A stretch of DNA of 64,000 nt from an uncultured Bacteroidales bacterium (GTDB lineage: Bacteria; Bacteroidota; Bacteroidia; Bacteroidales; Muribaculaceae), in NCBI GenBank assembly GCA_902774055.1, contig CACYGX010000008.1, forward strand, positions 1 through 64,000, in the 5' to 3' direction. Within the stretch, counting starts at the first letter, position 1, and each line of letters opens with the position of its first letter. The notes under the pieces were generated by a model. That model made no database searches. It had not been told where the DNA came from and saw only the letters and a list, made by a program, of their open reading frames with translations. A program made the translations under genes and the position numbers. This document shows positions 2,104 through 54,935 of the stretch, in pieces.

Positions 2104-2228
2104 CATTACTCCATCCGGGAGACAAAATATAGAGTTCCGCTATATCAATAACAGATATGGCGGAACATTTTTTATGGTAAACGACAACCTGGAGGGTGTC
2201 ACAAAACTCCACTTGTCGCAGTTATCAT

Positions 2229-2313
2229 CGGCCTAACGGCCGAGAAATCAAAAAAATGTATTAACTCTTTATTATTGTTTTATTAATAATTTTGATTTCT
2301 CGCGCGTAGCGCG
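2229..2313. repeat. Gene-less hairpin-ended inverted repeat element (same ends as the GxxExxY cassette)
   Basis: The left end has the hairpin CGGCC/GGCCG (2229-2233/2238-2242) running directly into GAGAAATCAAA. The right end is TTTGATTTCTC followed by the hairpin CGCGC/GCGCG (2301-2305/2309-2313). The AT-rich interior of about 40 bp has no open frame. The same arrangement, with different hairpin bases, bounds the GxxExxY gene at 53106-53603. This appears to be a non-coding member of that family. Confidence 0.75.
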
Positions 2314-2381
2314 ATCATTTATAAGAGACATGAGTTTTGCAAAACCCTCCAGTCGTCTAGGAAAATGGATTCTTGTCCTTG

Positions 2382-11470: not shown

Positions 11471-11917
11471 TCACGTCAAGCGATAGCTATTCCATTCAAT
11501 TCCAGCATTCTTTAGATGTTTGCGGTATTCATCTTCAAAAGTTTCTCGCTGATGATGAATGCGCTGATTCTTGATGTAATTGGCTACCATTTCTTTGTCT
11601 CGCAATGCGTAGGTAAAGGCTCCGTACTCCTTACCCCAACCTTTGAATTGAGGAAAAGTGTCCCGATTTTGCTTAATCCACTGACTTGTTGACAGTTTTA
11701 TATCACGCACAAGATCGGATAAACGCACCGAAGGATGAAGATTGACCAACATGTGGATGTGATTCTCAATGCCATTAATGGCATAAAGCGTCGATTGTGA
11801 ATTCCCAATAACTCGAGCGATGTATCGGTATAACTGGTCGCACGATTCGATCGGCAACGTCATCTCACGCCTGTAGGTGTTGATGACAATGTGATAAATG
11901 GCTATTACTGCACTCAT
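11471..11917 (-). CDS. IS200-like HUH (Y1) transposase
   Basis: A 148-residue protein read from the ATG at 11917; the open frame extends upstream but only through repeat DNA. It has the single-tyrosine HUH nuclease signature: NHIHML with HIH at residues 53-55, and a candidate nucleophile Tyr at about 114 (VANYIKNQ). Family members cut single-stranded DNA at subterminal hairpins. The gene sits between REP-like palindromes, which are the expected substrates. It aligns residue for residue with the transposase at 36316-36759 but has different flanking repeats. It appears intact. There is no tnpB/iscB partner. Confidence 0.88.
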   Translation of the reverse strand: MSAVIAIYHIVINTYRREMTLPIESCDQLYRYIARVIGNSQSTLYAINGIENHIHMLVNLHPSVRLSDLVRDIKLSTSQWIKQNRDTFPQFKGWGKEYGAFTYALRDKEMVANYIKNQRIHHQRETFEDEYRKHLKNAGIEWNSYRLT

Positions 11918-11984
11918 GATATCTCCGTTTTGCGTTGACAAAGTTACGACAAAACTAGTAGCAAACCAAATGAAGGATTGCCGA

Positions 11985-12120
11985 TGTGAGTGGCCCCCTC
12001 TGGGGCCCATACACTTATATCCCTCATTCCCCACGCCCCGCGGGTCTCCGACCCACGTGCCATGGGGTTTCCTCAAGTCAAGGCCGAATGGCCTTGTGCA
12101 GACCTACGGCCTGCATCTCA
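11985..12120. repeat. Right REP-like palindrome block of the HUH transposase element
   Basis: This block contains GTGGCCCCCTCTGGGGCCCA, a GGGTCTCCGACCC palindrome, GCCATGGGGTTTCCTCAAGT and AAGGCCGAATGGCCTT. It parallels 120-245 near the start of the window (GTGGCCCCCTTCGAGGCCCT, GCCATGGGGCTACCTCAATT and AAGGCCGCTGGCCTT). Beyond it, up to the DUF805 stop, an 8-bp hairpin GGGCGCAG/CTGCGCCC lies at 12203-12237. Confidence 0.75.
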
Positions 12121-17582: not shown

Positions 17583-17632
17583 CGAGAGGCGGGCGCCCGA
17601 CTGGCAGCCCGCCTCTCGCATGTTTACACCCC
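17583..17632 (+). terminator. Strong GC-rich hairpin terminator (copy 1 of a repeated 47-bp sequence)
   Basis: CGAGAGGCGGGC (17583-17594) pairs perfectly with GCCCGCCTCTCG (17607-17618). The 47 bases from 17586 to 17632 are identical to 20260-20306, another intergenic terminator position. Confidence 0.8.
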
Positions 17633-30636: not shown

Positions 30637-31194
30637 ATGGAGGGGAAAAGGGAGTTCTTGCCACAACGCGGGAATTATGAAAATCTGGCGGTTTACAAGT
30701 TGGCGACATGCATCTATGCCGTCACCTTTCATTTCGCCAACACCTATTTCTCCAGGGGCGATCGGACGATAGACCAGATGGTGCAGGCTGCTCGCAGCGG
30801 GAAGCAGAATATCGCTGAAGCTAGCGTTGACGGCAACACCTCAACAGAGATGGAAATCAAACTCATGAATGTTGCGCGTGGCAGTATGCACGAGCTCAAA
30901 GCCGATTATGAGGACTACTTGATGCATCATGAACTAGAATGTTGGGGCGGTAATGACCCGAGAACAAATGCCACAAGAAAGTTCTGCAAGGCCAACAATG
31001 ATCCCAACGTGTATATCGCCAAATGTAAAGAACGTTCCCCAGAGACCATTGCCAACATTGCCTTGACGATGATACACCAATATGATTTCCTGATGGTAAG
31101 GCTCATCGAGAGCATCAAGCGGCGATTCCTTGAACAAGGCGGTATCAAGGAACAAATGTTCCAAGCCCGCAAAGAACACCGCTATAAAAAATAG
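30637..31194 (+). CDS. Four-helix-bundle protein (23S rRNA intervening-sequence protein family, suffix type)
   Basis: A 185-residue protein. NLAVYKLATCIYAVTFHFANTYF followed by TIDQMVQAARSGKQNIAEA is the classical four-helix-bundle (S23-like) pattern. A C-terminal extension (about residues 130-185) is of the kind called the suffix domain. The biochemical function is unknown; relatives are encoded inside rRNA intervening sequences or as solitary genes. It is bounded by 9-bp repeat arrays on both sides and has its own promoter, which suggests a self-contained mobile or repeat-associated unit inserted between the lipoprotein gene and ettA. Confidence 0.85.
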   Translation: MEGKREFLPQRGNYENLAVYKLATCIYAVTFHFANTYFSRGDRTIDQMVQAARSGKQNIAEASVDGNTSTEMEIKLMNVARGSMHELKADYEDYLMHHELECWGGNDPRTNATRKFCKANNDPNVYIAKCKERSPETIANIALTMIHQYDFLMVRLIESIKRRFLEQGGIKEQMFQARKEHRYKK

Positions 31195-34072: not shown

Positions 34073-34106
34073 TCTTTAACAGAGAGAACGGATATAACGG
34101 ATGTGA

Positions 34107-34140
34107 CGGAGGGAACGGACAAATCAACCCGTTCCCTCCG
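34107..34140. terminator. Palindrome between converging genes
   Basis: CGGAGGGAACGG (34107-34118) pairs perfectly with CCGTTCCCTCCG (34129-34140). It sits within a wider run of CGGA/TCCG-type units (34085-34168), between the lipoprotein stop and the minus-strand sigma operon end. There is no clear T-run. Confidence 0.55.
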
Positions 34141-34179
34141 TTATATCCGTTCTATCCGTCACATCCACTATCAGGCAGG

Positions 34180-36315: not shown

Positions 36316-36759
36316 TCAAGTTAGGCGATAATCATTCCACTCAATTCCTGACAGATCGAGCATGGTCCTGTACTCTTCCTCAAACGATTCTGTTTTGTGA
36401 TGTTCACGTTGATTGATAATGTAATTGGTGATAGATTCTTTGTCTCGAGAACTGCAGGAAAAAGCGCCATATTCCTTTCCCCAACCACTGAACTGTGGGA
36501 AATAGGCTTGCTGTTTTGCCCACTTGCTGCTACCCTGCTTAATATCTCGCACGAGATCACTCAACGCTACTGTTGGGGCCAACTCAACGAGCATGTGTAT
36601 ATGGTTACCGATGCCATTGATGCGATAAAGGCGACAACCACGGCTCTTTACTATTGACCAAATATAACGATAAAGATGCTCACTAGTCTCATCTGGGATT
36701 GTCATCTGACGACGATAAGTGTTGATGACTATATGATACATTGAACTAACTGCACTCAT
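36316..36759 (-). CDS. IS200-like HUH (Y1) transposase, second copy type
   Basis: A 147-residue protein read from the ATG at 36759. HIH lies at residues 53-55 (NGIGNHIHMLVEL) and the candidate nucleophile Tyr at about 113 (TNYIINQREHH). It shares the same length and blocks (GWGKEYGAF, SDLVRDIK) with the transposase at 11471-11917 but is clearly diverged, and its flanking repeats are different. It appears intact. It inserted between two copies of a 49-bp direct repeat, upstream of the GH10-like gene. Confidence 0.87.
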   Translation of the reverse strand: MSAVSSMYHIVINTYRRQMTIPDETSEHLYRYIWSIVKSRGCRLYRINGIGNHIHMLVELAPTVALSDLVRDIKQGSSKWAKQQAYFPQFSGWGKEYGAFSCSSRDKESITNYIINQREHHKTESFEEEYRTMLDLSGIEWNDYRLT

Positions 36760-49816: not shown

Positions 49817-50626
49817 ATGCCACGCAGAAATCGAGAACATAGCGATACCGGCGTTTACCACGTGATGATGCGTGGTATTGACCGCCGTGACATCTTTGCC
49901 GATGATCAGGACCGCGGCAAGTTCCTAAAGATCCTTCGCACCGTTACAGCTCCTAAGGACCGCGACGGCAAGCCGTTGCCACCCTACTGCCACATCCACG
50001 CCTACTGCTTGATGGACAACCACATCCATCTGCTCATTGCCGAAGGCGCCGAGGACATTGGCACAGTCATGAAACGCATTGGCGTGTCATACGTCAGCTA
50101 TTACAACAAGCGGCACGAGCGTTTAGGCCCCTTGTTCCATGACCGCTTCCGCAGTGAGCCCGTCGGCAGCACGGACTATTTCATCACCCTGTTGCGTTAT
50201 ATCCACCAAAATCCCGTCGAGGCCGAGATGGTCGCCAGCCCTTACCAATACCGCTGGAGCAGTTGGCACGAGTACACGGCAACGCCTCCCACGCCCGACC
50301 AAACCATCTGCACCAAGGAACTGCCCTTCGCCGCGCTGCCATGGAATAAGCTGTGCGAAATGGTGCTCAACGTCAGCGCTGGGCACATCCAACCGCATTC
50401 CAGAATCGAACAAGGCCGAATGACAGACAATGAGGCACGCAAGACGTTGGAAAACCTGTGTGGATGCGACATCAACAACGTCCCCACGATGCCAAAAACT
50501 GATCGGAAGTTGCTCATCCGCAAAGCCATAGCACGCGGAGTCAACATGAGACAGCTCTCTCGCTTAACAGGCATTGAATACAGATCCATCTATAACGTAA
50601 TAAACGCAAAGCCGAAAAAGGGATAA
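49817..50626 (+). CDS. REP-associated tyrosine transposase (RAYT)
   Basis: A 269-residue protein read from the ATG at 49817. The HUH motif HIH lies at about 69-71 (YCLMDNHIHLLI), and the catalytic Tyr at about 128 in LLRYIHQNPVEA, the RAYT hallmark. A C-terminal helix-turn-helix-like region (RKAIARGVNMRQLSRLTGIE) may bind DNA. RAYTs are domesticated single-strand nucleases linked to REP palindrome spread. This one lies centrally between mirror-image REP blocks. It is much longer than, and distinct from, the two 148-residue HUH proteins in the window. Confidence 0.9.
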   Translation: MPRRNREHSDTGVYHVMMRGIDRRDIFADDQDRGKFLKILRTVTAPKDRDGKPLPPYCHIHAYCLMDNHIHLLIAEGAEDIGTVMKRIGVSYVSYYNKRHERLGPLFHDRFRSEPVGSTDYFITLLRYIHQNPVEAEMVASPYQYRWSSWHEYTATPPTPDQTICTKELPFAALPWNKLCEMVLNVSAGHIQPHSRIEQGRMTDNEARKTLENLCGCDINNVPTMPKTDRKLLIRKAIARGVNMRQLSRLTGIEYRSIYNVINAKPKKG

Positions 50627-51019: not shown

Positions 51020-53098
51020 ATGAAGAAGATTGCGACATTGTTGACGATGGTGACGGTGGCCATGATAGCCGTTGCCCAGATGGCTAATCCCGTCACGTTT
51101 ACTTCCCAACTCAAGACCACCAACGGCTCCAGCGAGGGCGAGATTGTCTTTACAGGTAAAATCGACAAGGGCTGGCATGTGTATTCCACCAACCTGGGCG
51201 ATGCAGGTCCCACCGAGGCCGGCATTACCTTCCACAAGAAGGACGGTGTGGAACCAGTGGGTAAACTTAAGGCTGTAGGCAAGGAAATCTCTAAGTTCGA
51301 CGAGATGTTCGGCGCCAAACTTCGTTACTTTGAAAATAACGTGCAGTTTGTGCAGAAGGTGAAGTTCACCAAGCCCAACTATGATATTGATGCCGACCTG
51401 GAGTACGGCGCATGCAACGACCAGTCGTGCCTGCCGCCGTCGAGCGTGAGCCTGAAGAAGGCTGGCAAGTCGCCCGCTGTTGACGGTGAGGCCGACAAGA
51501 ATAAGGCAGAACAGGAAAAAGCTGATGCCGAGGCGCTTGCCAAGGCCAAAGCAGACTCCCTCGCAGCCCTGGCAGCCGCAGCGGCCGACAGTGCCGCCAT
51601 GGGAGCCCCTGTGGATAGCGCTGCTCTTGCCGCGCTGGACCATGACGCATTGTGGAAACCCGTCGTTGGCGACGTTCAGCGCATGGACGGCACCGATGGC
51701 GGCAGTGGCAGCCGCTCGTTGTGGTACATCTTCCTGCTGGGTCTGATCGGCGGACTGGTGGCGTTGTTCACACCCTGTGTGTGGCCCATCATCCCCATGA
51801 CGGTAAGTTTCTTCCTCAAGCGTGCCAAGAATGACAAGAAGAAAGGTATAAAGGACGCTATCACCTATGGCATCTCGATTGTGGTCATCTATCTGGCCCT
51901 CGGCTTGATCGTGACCGCCATCTTTGGCCCCAGCGCGCTGAATGCCCTCTCGACCAATGCGGTATTCAACATCTTCCTGTGCCTGTTGCTGGTGGTCTTT
52001 GCGCTGTCGTTCTTCGGCATGTTCGAGATCAAGTTGCCCAGCAAGTGGTCTAACGCCGTTGACAACAAGGCCAGCAACACCAGCGGCCTGCTGTCCATCT
52101 TCCTGATGGCCTTCACGCTGGCGTTGGTTTCCTTCTCGTGCACGGGTCCCATCATCGGCTTCTTGCTGGTAGATTTCGCTACCAGCGGTAACTTCTGGGG
52201 TCCCGCCATCGGCATGTTGGGCTTCGCACTGGCCCTAGCATTGCCATTCACGCTGTTTGCCTTGTTCCCCTCATGGCTCAAGTCGGCCCCCAAGTCTGGC
52301 GGCTGGATGAATATCCTCAAGGTGACGCTCGGCTTTATCGAGCTGGCCTTTGCCTGCAAGTTCTTCTCGGTTGCCGACCTGGCCTACGGCTGGCACCTGA
52401 TGGACCGTGAAGTCTTCCTGTGCCTGTGGATCGCCATCTTTGGCCTGCTGGGACTTTACCTGATTGGCAAACTCAAGTTCAAGAGCGATATTGTCGAGCC
52501 AGGTGATGAGACCAAGCCCATGCCCGTGATCTGCATCATGGGCGGACTGATTTCGCTGGCATTCGCCATCTATATGATTCCAGGCCTGTGGGGCGCACCG
52601 TGTAAGGCAGTAAGCGCCTTTGCGCCGCCCATGAACACTCAGGACTTCAACCTCAACACCAAGGAGGTGCGCGCCGCCTATACCGACTATGAGCAAGGTA
52701 TGGCCGCTGCTGCCGCTGCCGGCAAACCCGTCTTCCTGGACTTTACAGGCTTTGGCTGCGTAAACTGCCGCAAGATGGAAGCCGCCGTGTGGACTGATCC
52801 CAGCGTGGCCGACAAGTTGAACAAAGACTATGTGCTCATCTCGCTCTTTGTCGATGACAAGCGCCCGCTGCCCGAGCCCATCGAGGTGACCGAGGCCACT
52901 GGCGAGAAGCGCACGCTGCGCACCATCGGCGACAAGTGGAGCTACCTGCAACGCTACAAGTTCGGCAGCAACACGCAGCCGTTCTACGTCTGCGTTGACC
53001 CGCAGGGCAACGCCATGAGCGGCTCGTTCAGCTACAAGGAGGACGTCCCCGCCTTCCTCGAATTCCTGGACGGCGGCCTGACCAAATTCCGACAATAA
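51020..53098 (+). CDS. dsbD: Thiol:disulfide interchange protein DsbD
   Basis: A 692-residue electron-relay protein. The signal peptide is followed by the N-terminal DsbD-alpha immunoglobulin-like domain (about 25-150, with YGACNDQSCLPP). An Ala-rich linker leads to the eight-helix CcdA-like membrane core with paired cysteines in TPCVWPIIP (about 253) and SFSCTGPIIG (about 373). The C-terminal thioredoxin domain carries GCVNCRKME (about 580). It moves reducing power from cytoplasmic thioredoxin to the periplasm, plausibly serving the TlpA-like proteins at 46985-49281. Confidence 0.94.
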   Translation: MKKIATLLTMVTVAMIAVAQMANPVTFTSQLKTTNGSSEGEIVFTGKIDKGWHVYSTNLGDAGPTEAGITFHKKDGVEPVGKLKAVGKEISKFDEMFGAKLRYFENNVQFVQKVKFTKPNYDIDADLEYGACNDQSCLPPSSVSLKKAGKSPAVDGEADKNKAEQEKADAEALAKAKADSLAALAAAAADSAAMGAPVDSAALAALDHDALWKPVVGDVQRMDGTDGGSGSRSLWYIFLLGLIGGLVALFTPCVWPIIPMTVSFFLKRAKNDKKKGIKDAITYGISIVVIYLALGLIVTAIFGPSALNALSTNAVFNIFLCLLLVVFALSFFGMFEIKLPSKWSNAVDNKASNTSGLLSIFLMAFTLALVSFSCTGPIIGFLLVDFATSGNFWGPAIGMLGFALALALPFTLFALFPSWLKSAPKSGGWMNILKVTLGFIELAFACKFFSVADLAYGWHLMDREVFLCLWIAIFGLLGLYLIGKLKFKSDIVEPGDETKPMPVICIMGGLISLAFAIYMIPGLWGAPCKAVSAFAPPMNTQDFNLNTKEVRAAYTDYEQGMAAAAAAGKPVFLDFTGFGCVNCRKMEAAVWTDPSVADKLNKDYVLISLFVDDKRPLPEPIEVTEATGEKRTLRTIGDKWSYLQRYKFGSNTQPFYVCVDPQGNAMSGSFSYKEDVPAFLEFLDGGLTKFRQ

Positions 53099-53105
53099 AT
53101 TTGAT

Positions 53106-53603
53106 CGTGCTACGCACGAGAAATCAAAAAAATATTTATTAATGACAGCCGAGGAATATAACCATCGATATGCCTTCTTTCAAGATATAACAGGGAGAGC
53201 AATGCAAGTTCACACTGAATATCACGGCGGGCTTTTAGAATCTGCTTATGAAGCGGCCCTCACCTACCTGCTGACACAGGATGGCTATCAGGTTGAGAGG
53301 CAAGTATTCCTGCCTATTTATTGGAAAGAGGTCAAGCTCAACCAGAACTACCGTATGGACCTGGTTATCAATCATGAAGTTATCATAGAGCTCAAAGCAA
53401 TGAACTTTACCGGTCTTGAGCATCGCAAACAATTGTGGAACTACATGAACCTGACTCATATGCCTTTTGGAATGCTGATTAACTTCAGTCCTAGAGGACT
53501 CTATTCCGAATGGTATCACCGCCATCAAAATGGTGAAATGGAACAGATAAAGGTCCGAAAAGAATAATTAAAAAAAAGTATTTGATTTCTCGCGCAAAGC
53601 GCG
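53106..53603. mobile_element. Hairpin-ended cassette containing the GxxExxY gene
   Basis: The left end is the hairpin CGTGC/GCACG (53106-53110/53114-53118) running into GAGAAATCAAA. The right end is TTTGATTTCTC (53581-53591) running into CGCGC/GCGCG (53591-53595/53599-53603). The ends are inverted relative to each other, with compensatory changes that keep the stems paired. The gene starts 14 bp after the left motif and ends 14 bp before the right one. A gene-less relative is at 2229-2313. Confidence 0.75.
53142..53567 (+). CDS. GxxExxY family protein (PD-(D/E)XK nuclease-like)
   Basis: A 141-residue protein with the defining motif G-L-L-E-S-A-Y at residues 30-36 (preceded by HTEYHG). A PD-(D/E)XK-like core follows: Asp73 in YRMDLVINH, and Glu83 and Lys85 in IIELKAM. 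The C-terminus LWNYMNLTHMPFGMLINF is family-typical. No biochemical function is established for the family that I know of; the motif suggests nuclease activity. It is immediately enclosed by hairpin-bearing inverted ends, so it appears to be the only gene of a small cassette between dsbD and the cyuA-like gene. Confidence 0.88.
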   Translation: MTAEEYNHRYAFFQDITGRAMQVHTEYHGGLLESAYEAALTYLLTQDGYQVERQVFLPIYWKEVKLNQNYRMDLVINHEVIIELKAMNFTGLEHRKQLWNYMNLTHMPFGMLINFSPRGLYSEWYHRHQNGEMEQIKVRKE

Positions 53604-53642
53604 ATCCAAATTAAGATAATAACCGATTGCCATTAAAGAAAT

Positions 53643-54935
53643 ATGATTGAAGAGAAGACTAGAGAGCGGATTATCGCGTTGATGAAGCGCGAAGTTGTCC
53701 CTGCTGTGGGTTGCACCGAGCCCATGGCAGTGGCATTGTGTGTTAGTCGTGCTACCGAGGAGCTGGGCTTCATCCCAGAGAAAATCACCGTCCTGCTGAG
53801 CGCCAACATCCTCAAGAACGCCATGGGTGTGGGCATTCCCGGCACGGGAATGATCGGCCTGCCCATCGCCATCGCCCTGGGTGCCATCGTCGGCAATTCG
53901 GACTACAAACTCGAGGTGCTCAAGGATATCACCCCCGAGGCCCTGGAGCAGGGCAAGCAGTACATCAACGAGGGACGCATCGACATCCAACTGAAGCAGG
54001 ATTGCTGCGACAAACTGTATGTCGAAGCCATCTGCGAGGGCCAAGGCCACACCGCCAGCGCCATTATCCAGGGCTCGCACACCTGCTTTGTTAGAATCTC
54101 TTATGATGACAGGACCATGCTCATCGACCCCATGCCCGACGGCTTTATCGGCGATGACGACAGCAATGACATCAGCCTGAAGCTGCGCCTGGTCTATGAC
54201 TTCGCCATGGAGGCACCGCTCGACGACATCCGCTTCATCCTCGAGACCCGCGACTATAACCTCAAGGCCGCCCAGGAGTCCATCAAGGGCAACTACGGGC
54301 ATTGCCTGGGTAAGACGATGGATAGGCCGCTGAGCCACGGCATCTTTGGCAACACCATCTTCTCACGCATTCTCTCCAAGACCGCCCTGGCGACCGATGC
54401 CCGCATGGGCGGCGCCTTGATTCCCGTGATGAGCAACAGCGGCTCGGGCAATCAGGGCATCTGCGCCACAAACCCCGTCGCCGTCTATGCGATGGAGAAC
54501 GAGAACACTGAGGAGGAACTCATCCGAGCCCTCACGCTGAGCCACCTGACCGCCATCTATATCAAGCAGAGCCTGGGCAAGCTGAGTGCCCTGTGTGGCT
54601 GCGTCGTGGCCTCGATAGGCAGCAGTTGCGGCATTACCTACCTGATGGGCGGCGACTTTAACCGCATCTGCTATGCGGTGAAGAACATGATTGCCAACTT
54701 GACGGGCATGATTTGTGACGGTGCCAAGCCCAGCTGCGCCCTGAAGATCGCGTCGGGCGTATCGACGGCCCTGCTGTCGGCCGTTCTCGCCATCGAGGGC
54801 CGCCACGTCACCAGCGCCGAGGGCATCATCGATGACGATGTGGACCGCTCAATCCGCAACCTCACCATCATTGGTGCCGACGCCATGAACGCTACCGACA
54901 ACATGGTCCTCAACATCATGACCGGCAAGCAATAA
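53643..54935 (+). CDS. UPF0597/L-cysteine desulfidase family protein (CyuA/YhaM-like)
   Basis: A 430-residue protein of the serine dehydratase-alpha-like UPF0597 family. It has VPAVGCTEPMAVALCVSRA, NILKNAMGVGIPGTGM, SNSGSGNQGICATNPV and LCGCVVASIGSSCGITYLMGG. The conserved Cys residues fit an oxygen-sensitive [4Fe-4S] cluster. Characterised members degrade L-cysteine to pyruvate, ammonia and sulfide. Full length and monocistronic. A perfect 28-bp palindrome follows at 55061-55088. Confidence 0.9.
   Translation: MIEEKTRERIIALMKREVVPAVGCTEPMAVALCVSRATEELGFIPEKITVLLSANILKNAMGVGIPGTGMIGLPIAIALGAIVGNSDYKLEVLKDITPEALEQGKQYINEGRIDIQLKQDCCDKLYVEAICEGQGHTASAIIQGSHTCFVRISYDDRTMLIDPMPDGFIGDDDSNDISLKLRLVYDFAMEAPLDDIRFILETRDYNLKAAQESIKGNYGHCLGKTMDRPLSHGIFGNTIFSRILSKTALATDARMGGALIPVMSNSGSGNQGICATNPVAVYAMENENTEEELIRALTLSHLTAIYIKQSLGKLSALCGCVVASIGSSCGITYLMGGDFNRICYAVKNMIANLTGMICDGAKPSCALKIASGVSTALLSAVLAIEGRHVTSAEGIIDDDVDRSIRNLTIIGADAMNATDNMVLNIMTGKQ

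Follow-up and report, generated by a model that had tools for sequence, protein, structure and literature searches.

The window, the whole 64,000-nucleotide stretch of DNA analysed here, contains a 426-bp GxxExxY gene that lies between a dsbD-like gene, with its stop codon at 53096-53098, and a serine-dehydratase-type gene (sdh) starting at 53643 (Table 1). Inverted GAAATC tags, each joined to a perfect 6-bp hairpin, frame the gene tightly at 53105-53125 and 53584-53604. The initial annotation had placed these ends at the right coordinates and had noticed that the left and right stems differ in a compensated manner, with pairing kept at both ends of the cassette; its stem length was one pair short, giving 5 bp rather than 6 bp. 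Outside the hairpins the ends continue into a weak outer pairing, AATTTGATC with GATCCAAATT, which contains one bulge. We also considered a transcription terminator for the window copy and rejected it because no T-run comes after the right hairpin. A search with Rfam at gathering thresholds gave no match in the window, and domain profile searches recognised no transposase gene in the cassette, PDDEXK_3 being the sole match.

Table 1 Features of the GxxExxY cassette and of a gene-less copy in the window
Feature	Position	Strand	Evidence and remarks
Outer left arm AATTTGAT	53098..53105	+	Inverted-repeat alignment and scan; imperfect pairing with 53604-53612; overlap with the dsbD stop codon
Left hairpin, TCGTGC (53105-53110), TAC loop, GCACGA (53114-53119)	53105..53119	+	Sequence, covariation
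Left tag GAAATC and A-rich inner arm, GAAATCAAAAAAA	53120..53132	+	Inverted partner at 53570-53589; genome count
GxxExxY gene, predicted PD-(D/E)XK nuclease (PDDEXK_3), 141 aa	53142..53567	+	Profiles, invariant residues, AlphaFold model, Cas4-type match
Right inner arm and inverted tag GATTTC (53584-53589)	53570..53589	+	Sequence, inverted-repeat alignment
Right hairpin, TCGCGC (53590-53595), AAA loop, GCGCGA (53599-53604)	53590..53604	+	Sequence, covariation
Outer right arm ATCCAAATT	53604..53612	+	Sequence, inverted-repeat alignment
Gene-less copy, hairpins CGGCC and CGCGC, GAGAAATCAAA tags inward; part of a dispersed element whose outer arms resemble GTGTTGCAAAACTC	2224..2318	.	Motif counts, inverted-repeat scan

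The GxxExxY protein is a predicted Cas4-type nuclease

The window protein matches PF13366 with 107.5 bits (cut-off 22) and the GxxExxY profile TIGR04256 with 114.3 bits (cut-off 35). Residues E33, Y36, D73, E83, Q97 and Y101 are invariant among 72 GxxExxY sequences, and G30 and K85 are kept in at least 90% of them. The conservation of the catalytic residues and the profile matches bear out the D...ExK nuclease-like core that had been read from the sequence at the outset. The protein combines a PD-(D/E)XK fold with QxxxY, the features asked of a Cas4, and its AlphaFold model is closest in fold to SSO0001, which we take to be a Cas4; by sequence, no solved relative was found at E≤1. Judged from the model and the conserved residues, the GxxExxY protein is a putative Cas4/RecB-type PD-(D/E)XK nuclease with its active site intact. 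Fold and QxxxY are common to this protein and the Cas4/RecB-type nucleases, whereas the iron-sulphur cysteines of Cas4 are absent: the 141-residue chain contains no cysteine and therefore holds no iron-sulphur cluster. The setting differs too, in that the gene stands alone between inverted ends and its two neighbours are not CRISPR genes.

GxxExxY matches are present in at least 89 of the 101 genomes of the window's genus and in 101 of 198 genomes across the phylum, and eight further loci were found on viral contigs. These are common orphan genes whose name is used, in the literature searched, by two papers only, PMC8934634 and PMC12085832. A literature search set outside subscription journals and preprints found, in the texts accessible to it, nothing on the ends of GxxExxY genes.

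Mirror-image flanks surround GxxExxY genes across the phylum

To each locus we assigned a mirror score by locally aligning 260 bp of its left flank to the reverse complement of 260 bp of its right flank. The genus set comprised 80 loci, made up of the best 30 matches (the window's own included), 48 chosen among the matches listed and the two other copies in the window's genome. Their median score was 19.5, compared with 9 for 948 mismatched pairs in which the left flank of one locus was set against the right flank of another. The 95th percentile of the mismatched pairs, in which pairs sharing an end type are included, was 17.5 and was exceeded by 50 of the 80 true pairs; the 99th percentile was 25.5 and was exceeded by 10. 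In two of the 80 genus loci the mirror was absent. A control of 47 other ORFs of the window gave a median of 8.5, and the five that scored above 18 were three Y1 (HUH) transposases, one 23S-intervening-protein-like gene and one YfhO gene. The expectation that other GxxExxY genes would be framed in the same way is thus borne out. Mirrored arms of several sequence types also occur around GxxExxY genes across the phylum: a search over the whole phylum gave, for its 30 best-scoring loci, a median mirror score of 15.25 (9 for mismatched pairs), with eight of the 30 above the 99th percentile of those pairs.

Six annotated loci from a plasmid collection were scored in the same way, with high values at L337 (18.0) and L342 (22.5) and low values at L336 (10.5), L339 (8.5), L340 (7.0) and L341 (11.0). 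Inspected by eye, L338 has a CGCAGAG palindrome downstream while its left arm is not clear, and L343 has no clear arms. In L339, from Sphingomonas parapaucimobilis, the GxxExxY gene (1440-1905) has fabD on one side and fabG on the other. CGCGAAG units make up the left arm, and an inverted right arm falls within the 3' end of the gene's reading frame. The gene of L340, on a Fusobacteria plasmid (1477-1851), is bracketed by two copies of a repeat some 50 bp long, which are direct, not inverted, and a misfit to the model.

End sequences change between clades and remain paired

The genes of the proteins nearest the window's have a hairpin with GAAAT[CT] tags, in the versions GAGAAATCAAA, GGGAAATTAAACAAA and GGGAAATTTATCAAA, and their left and right ends are similar. 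Other GxxExxY clades carry inverted arrays of short units, for example CACGAATGNC, ACAACNNNN and ACAATAAGT. We dropped the idea that GC hairpins stand at all GxxExxY ends; hairpins mark the clade of the window gene (clade 1), and other clades have plain arrays. By autocorrelation the arms of the other genus clades have a period of 9-10 bp (0.45-0.47 vs 0.33-0.34 shuffled), those of the window's clade a weak period of 9 (0.36 vs 0.31 shuffled) and those of 23S-intervening-protein genes a period of 7 (0.65 vs 0.33 shuffled). The end sequences vary among protein clades, yet pairing persists. On the protein tree, like arm types group together (12 changes vs 18.7 when shuffled, none of 200 shufflings as low); that tree has one row per upstream family, 40 rows in total, 15 of which (the window's included) were left untyped by the motif rule. 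The same rule gave no arm type for 25 of the 80 loci, the window's own among them.

In the hairpin clade, taken unselected, at least four of five stem pairs were formed at 43 of 83 GAAAT anchors within the arms vs 5 of 49 outside them. Covariation was measured on 30 distinct clade-1 hairpins that had been selected for at least four of five pairs. These selected hairpins had 4.97 Watson-Crick pairs out of 5, compared with 2.50 when the partners were shuffled (maximum 3.37 in 2000), and every stem position was occupied by two to four Watson-Crick pair types. Within this selected set the compensatory change first seen between the two ends of a single cassette is thus a general property of the stems.

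Selection on a transcript structure should leave more G-U-type than A-C-type mismatches on the gene strand. In the 78 of 80 genus loci that scored high enough, the arms had 141 G-U-type and 165 A-C-type mismatches (p=0.19); the corresponding numbers were 50 and 55 for 26 of the 30 phylum loci and 48 and 44 for 28 23S-intervening-protein loci. Among the 150 stem pairs of the 30 selected hairpins there was no G-T pair. That G-U-type mismatches are not in excess speaks against a function at the RNA level, without excluding pairing there, and this negative result leads us to favour recognition as DNA structure or duplex. Of the two possibilities that the initial annotation had left side by side, recognition as DNA or as RNA structure, the former is accordingly favoured and the latter disfavoured.

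Sites of the cassette, orientation and turnover

The 80 loci fall beside about 34 upstream gene families, a number in which some ORFs may be spurious, and 74 of them have a same-strand ORF ending at most 400 nt upstream. Where the upstream neighbour is known, 71 of 78 loci are on its strand, compared with 36 of 50 window ORFs. When one locus was taken per upstream family (40 loci), both neighbours were co-directional in 26 cases and both opposite in three; the same measure on window ORFs gave 24 and 2. Orientation is weak evidence because the ordinary genes of the window lie much the same way, and the bias speaks only against random orientation without selection.

At the dsbD-sdh gap, we classed by eye the 32 loci without an intact cassette. 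Three of them are empty sites (L116, L119 and L143), and 25 hold a different, gene-less inverted array (11 ACAAT, 2 ACAAC, 9 and 2 of two 7-bp types, and 1 other). L132 is a cassette remnant in which both hairpins are present and the gene is gone, and three loci are ambiguous. On a tree of the flanking dsbD ends with 41 rows, in which inner branches are mostly weak (23 of 38 open) and several genomes supply two loci, the content of the gap changed 27 times vs 26.3 times with shuffled labels. Well-supported sister rows differ in content, L035 having the cassette and L142 a gene-less array. The last dsbD codons of L116-L147 come mainly in two versions, KFKE or KFRQ, which tend to match the array type behind them. 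By eye, element type tends to match these codons, so that part of the turnover resembles a swap of the entire gap, which may have been exchanged along with a bit of the gene.

A second comparison is provided by radA in another genus. In Parabacteroides distasonis only 13 nt separate radA from the next gene, an empty site; in Bacteroides finegoldii the same gap is filled by a cassette that has CACCACAGAGG arms. The choice at this gap is not just between empty and occupied, for in Phocaeicola massiliensis (L344, 910-1606) it contains some 700 bp of other DNA, in which there is a different open frame and nothing that matches GxxExxY. Empty sites thus occur both at dsbD-sdh and at radA. The initial annotation had proposed such comparisons as a way to exact boundaries and a target duplication; they place the insertion point to within a few bases, and by eye no target duplication was seen in the two empty-site comparisons. 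Neither cassette excision nor recent transposition was seen in the sequences compared.

Copies of the ends without the gene

In the 3.17-Mb window genome, GAGAAATCAAA has 22 exact occurrences vs 0 for a reversed control, and 108 vs 32 if one mismatch is allowed. By eye, 17 of the 22 exact sites adjoin a hairpin, two of these imperfect, and five do not; two of the 17 are those of the window cassette. GGGAAATTAAACAAA is present in 30 of 101 genomes, most often in G061 (51 times), and no genome contains its reversed control. In each of 20 stretches of G061 viewed by eye the tag sits on a CCGTGC or CCGCCC hairpin, and the partner end is intact within about 110 nt in 15, interrupted in three and damaged or ambiguous in two (L302, L303). 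ACAAT-type palindromes, which resemble the ends of the window genome's C11 GxxExxY gene (L032), were found in 36 of 101 genomes and the control in none. Gene-less end copies outnumber gene-bearing ones in both genomes examined for them, G000 and G061. The clade-1 cassette is present in 16 of the 30 genomes with the tag and in 21 of the 71 others (p=0.04), a weak co-occurrence.

A further outer inverted repeat, GTGTGTCATAATT / GTGTTGCAAAACTC, surrounds 11 of the 20 G061 copies and 5 of 12 G000 loci, and it is absent from the window cassette. Around the 16 gene-less copies with both outer repeats (11 in G061 and 5 in G000) no target duplication was visible by eye. An insertion sequence bearing the outer repeat was not found in G000, whose assembly is about 94% complete and gave 13 hits with no pair 1-2 kb apart. 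The copies with the outer repeat may have another mobiliser.

Interpretation of the locus

Paired ends with compensatory changes recur around GxxExxY genes with many different neighbours, mostly on the strand of the upstream gene, and both empty sites and gene-less copies exist. We give an even chance to the explanation that the locus is a single-gene mobile cassette of REPtron-like design, with a Cas4-like nuclease in place of the HUH transposase and with ends that are also scattered gene-less; the mirror ends, the empty sites and the gene-less copies carry this estimate. The GxxExxY nuclease, we infer, moves its own ends. In single-stranded or extruded DNA, the hairpins of both ends could, along with the inner arms, draw the ends together, the GxxExxY protein would recognise hairpin and tag and then cut or trim there, and host repair or replication would copy the element into another gap. 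The orientation would suit a GxxExxY gene that is read from its neighbour's promoter. The initial annotation had proposed such a one-gene element, and had named ends unique to this gene or a lack of clean empty sites as findings that would speak against it; structured, co-varying ends around a D...ExK nuclease gene were confirmed, other GxxExxY genes have such framing, and empty sites exist.

The nearest known system is REP/RAYT: according to the accessible text of PMC6006769, a REPtron has a single nuclease gene set among tagged, inverted hairpins that also occur as copies in other places. The features shared with REPtrons and REPINs (TnpA-REP, RAYT) are the small nuclease-type gene, the inverted hairpins, the short tag at the hairpin foot and the gene-less copies. 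In contrast, the window enzyme is PD-(D/E)XK and that of a REPtron HUH Y1, the window tag is GAAAT[CT] (RATTTC read 5' to the foot) and that of a REPtron GT[AG]G 5' to the hairpin foot, and other GxxExxY clades carry inverted short-unit arrays in place of the hairpin. Differing in enzyme and tag, the unit is therefore REPtron-like in its presumed working and not a REPtron. The earlier description 'unlike known insertion sequences' calls for qualification, as the unit would act in the manner of REP/RAYT units with a different enzyme. Like MITEs and insertion sequences, the cassette has inverted ends, dispersed gene-less copies and empty sites; unlike them, it has no recognised transposase gene, and its ends differ between species while still being mutually complementary. 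No target duplication was visible by eye, with boundaries placed to within a few bases. The 23S rRNA intervening sequences with S23/four-helix-bundle genes (TIGR02436) also join a single small gene to inverted ends, whereas the window gene encodes a nuclease, not S23, and its site is a gap between protein genes instead of an rRNA gene; the arms around S23 genes are for the most part tandem arrays with 7-bp units.

The ends could instead be MITE or palindrome DNA that an unseen transposase spreads via the outer repeat and that recombination and template switching reshuffle, with GxxExxY as a passenger or host gene. We regard this as unlikely, though a serious contender: the outer inverted repeats at 11 of 20 G061 copies and 5 of 12 G000 loci speak for it, as do a dsbD-sdh content that changes independently of the flanking gene tree (27 vs 26.3 shuffled) and a cassette orientation resembling that of ordinary genes, but the window cassette has no outer repeat and no insertion sequence carrying that repeat was seen in G000. 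Mirrored arms of several types across the phylum, and the clustering of arm type on the protein tree, likewise argue against a passenger gene. For the gene-less copies, a hidden transposase acting on the outer repeat is possible.

Two further explanations look to other known systems. In the first, HUH Y1 (RAYT) transposases encoded in the same genome would mobilise REP-like ends in trans; REP/RAYT as the nearest known biology (the accessible text of PMC6006769) speaks for it, as do the three Y1 genes in the window and the five in the genome. Within about 1.5 kb on each side of all five Y1 loci, however, a search for three end motifs found no ACAAT or ACAAC arms and one stray GAGAAATC (L189), and strong inverted ends of other sequence were present at three scanned Y1 loci and likewise at the window's third Y1 gene. 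As the five loci do not share the tested motifs, trans-mobilisation by RAYT is unsupported, and we consider it improbable. In the second, the element would act as RNA in the way of the 23S rRNA intervening sequences, its ends pairing and being processed in the transcript with the gene as cargo; this would explain the placement on the upstream gene's strand (71 of 78 loci, against 36 of 50 window ORFs) and the identical mirror-armed layout of 23S-intervening-protein genes (28 loci, median 24.5). The absence of strand asymmetry among arm mismatches and of G-T among the selected stem pairs speaks against it, and we consider it improbable as well.

Returning to the single-gene mobile cassette, the framed cassettes and gene-less ends found at many sites in related bacteria point to very small mobile elements of a type that has been little described. 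More tentatively, and with the balance of our judgement against so broad a claim, GxxExxY proteins could be the enzymes behind a large and so far overlooked class of mobile elements, in which a Cas4-like nuclease, with no transposase, moves DNA with co-evolving inverted structural ends and gene-less copies in trans; the 23S-intervening-protein elements, with mostly 7-bp arms, would form a sister class. If true, the two classes would account for many inverted short-repeat arrays between Bacteroidota genes and for CGCAAAG/CACAGAG-type arrays beyond, giving these unexplained intergenic arrays an origin, and GxxExxY would be the PD-(D/E)XK counterpart to the HUH-based REP system. With this consistent anatomy of mirror ends, gene-less copies, empty sites and an intact nuclease, a family of orphans becomes the subject of a mobile-element hypothesis that can be tested.

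Other elements with inverted ends

The 23S-intervening-protein genes of the genus were represented by L156-L185, with 28 of 30 loci having a usable ORF. All 28 are on the strand of the upstream neighbour, and the arms are mostly inverted 7-bp tandem arrays. By eye, an arm of one of these loci (L168) contains the heptamer TAACTGA. The accessible text of PMC4679880 describes TAACTGA heptamers as direct tandem repeats of 7 bp in the intergenic DNA of Bacteroidetes that may serve in regulation, and the terms S23, four helix and intervening sequence do not occur in its main text. The window itself has a 23S-intervening-protein-like gene at 30637-31194 (PF05635, E 6.3e-6, below cut-off), with inverted arrays of about 9 bp (TCTCCGAGN) on both sides, the layout of the cassette around another gene.

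Two of the window's Y1 genes, at 11471-12010 and 36316-36759, each have their own long, inverted ends made of several hairpins, and the third, at 49817-50626, is flanked by inverted AAATTACATCAAAAGAACCGTCCC-type repeats. A gene-less palindromic array at 34088-34159 consists of ACGGATATA/ACGGAGGGA-type units and is similar to the arms of other elements. The YfhO gene is flanked on both sides by palindromic GCGGGCGCCCGACTGGCAGCCCGC, at 17583-17618 and downstream of 20134.
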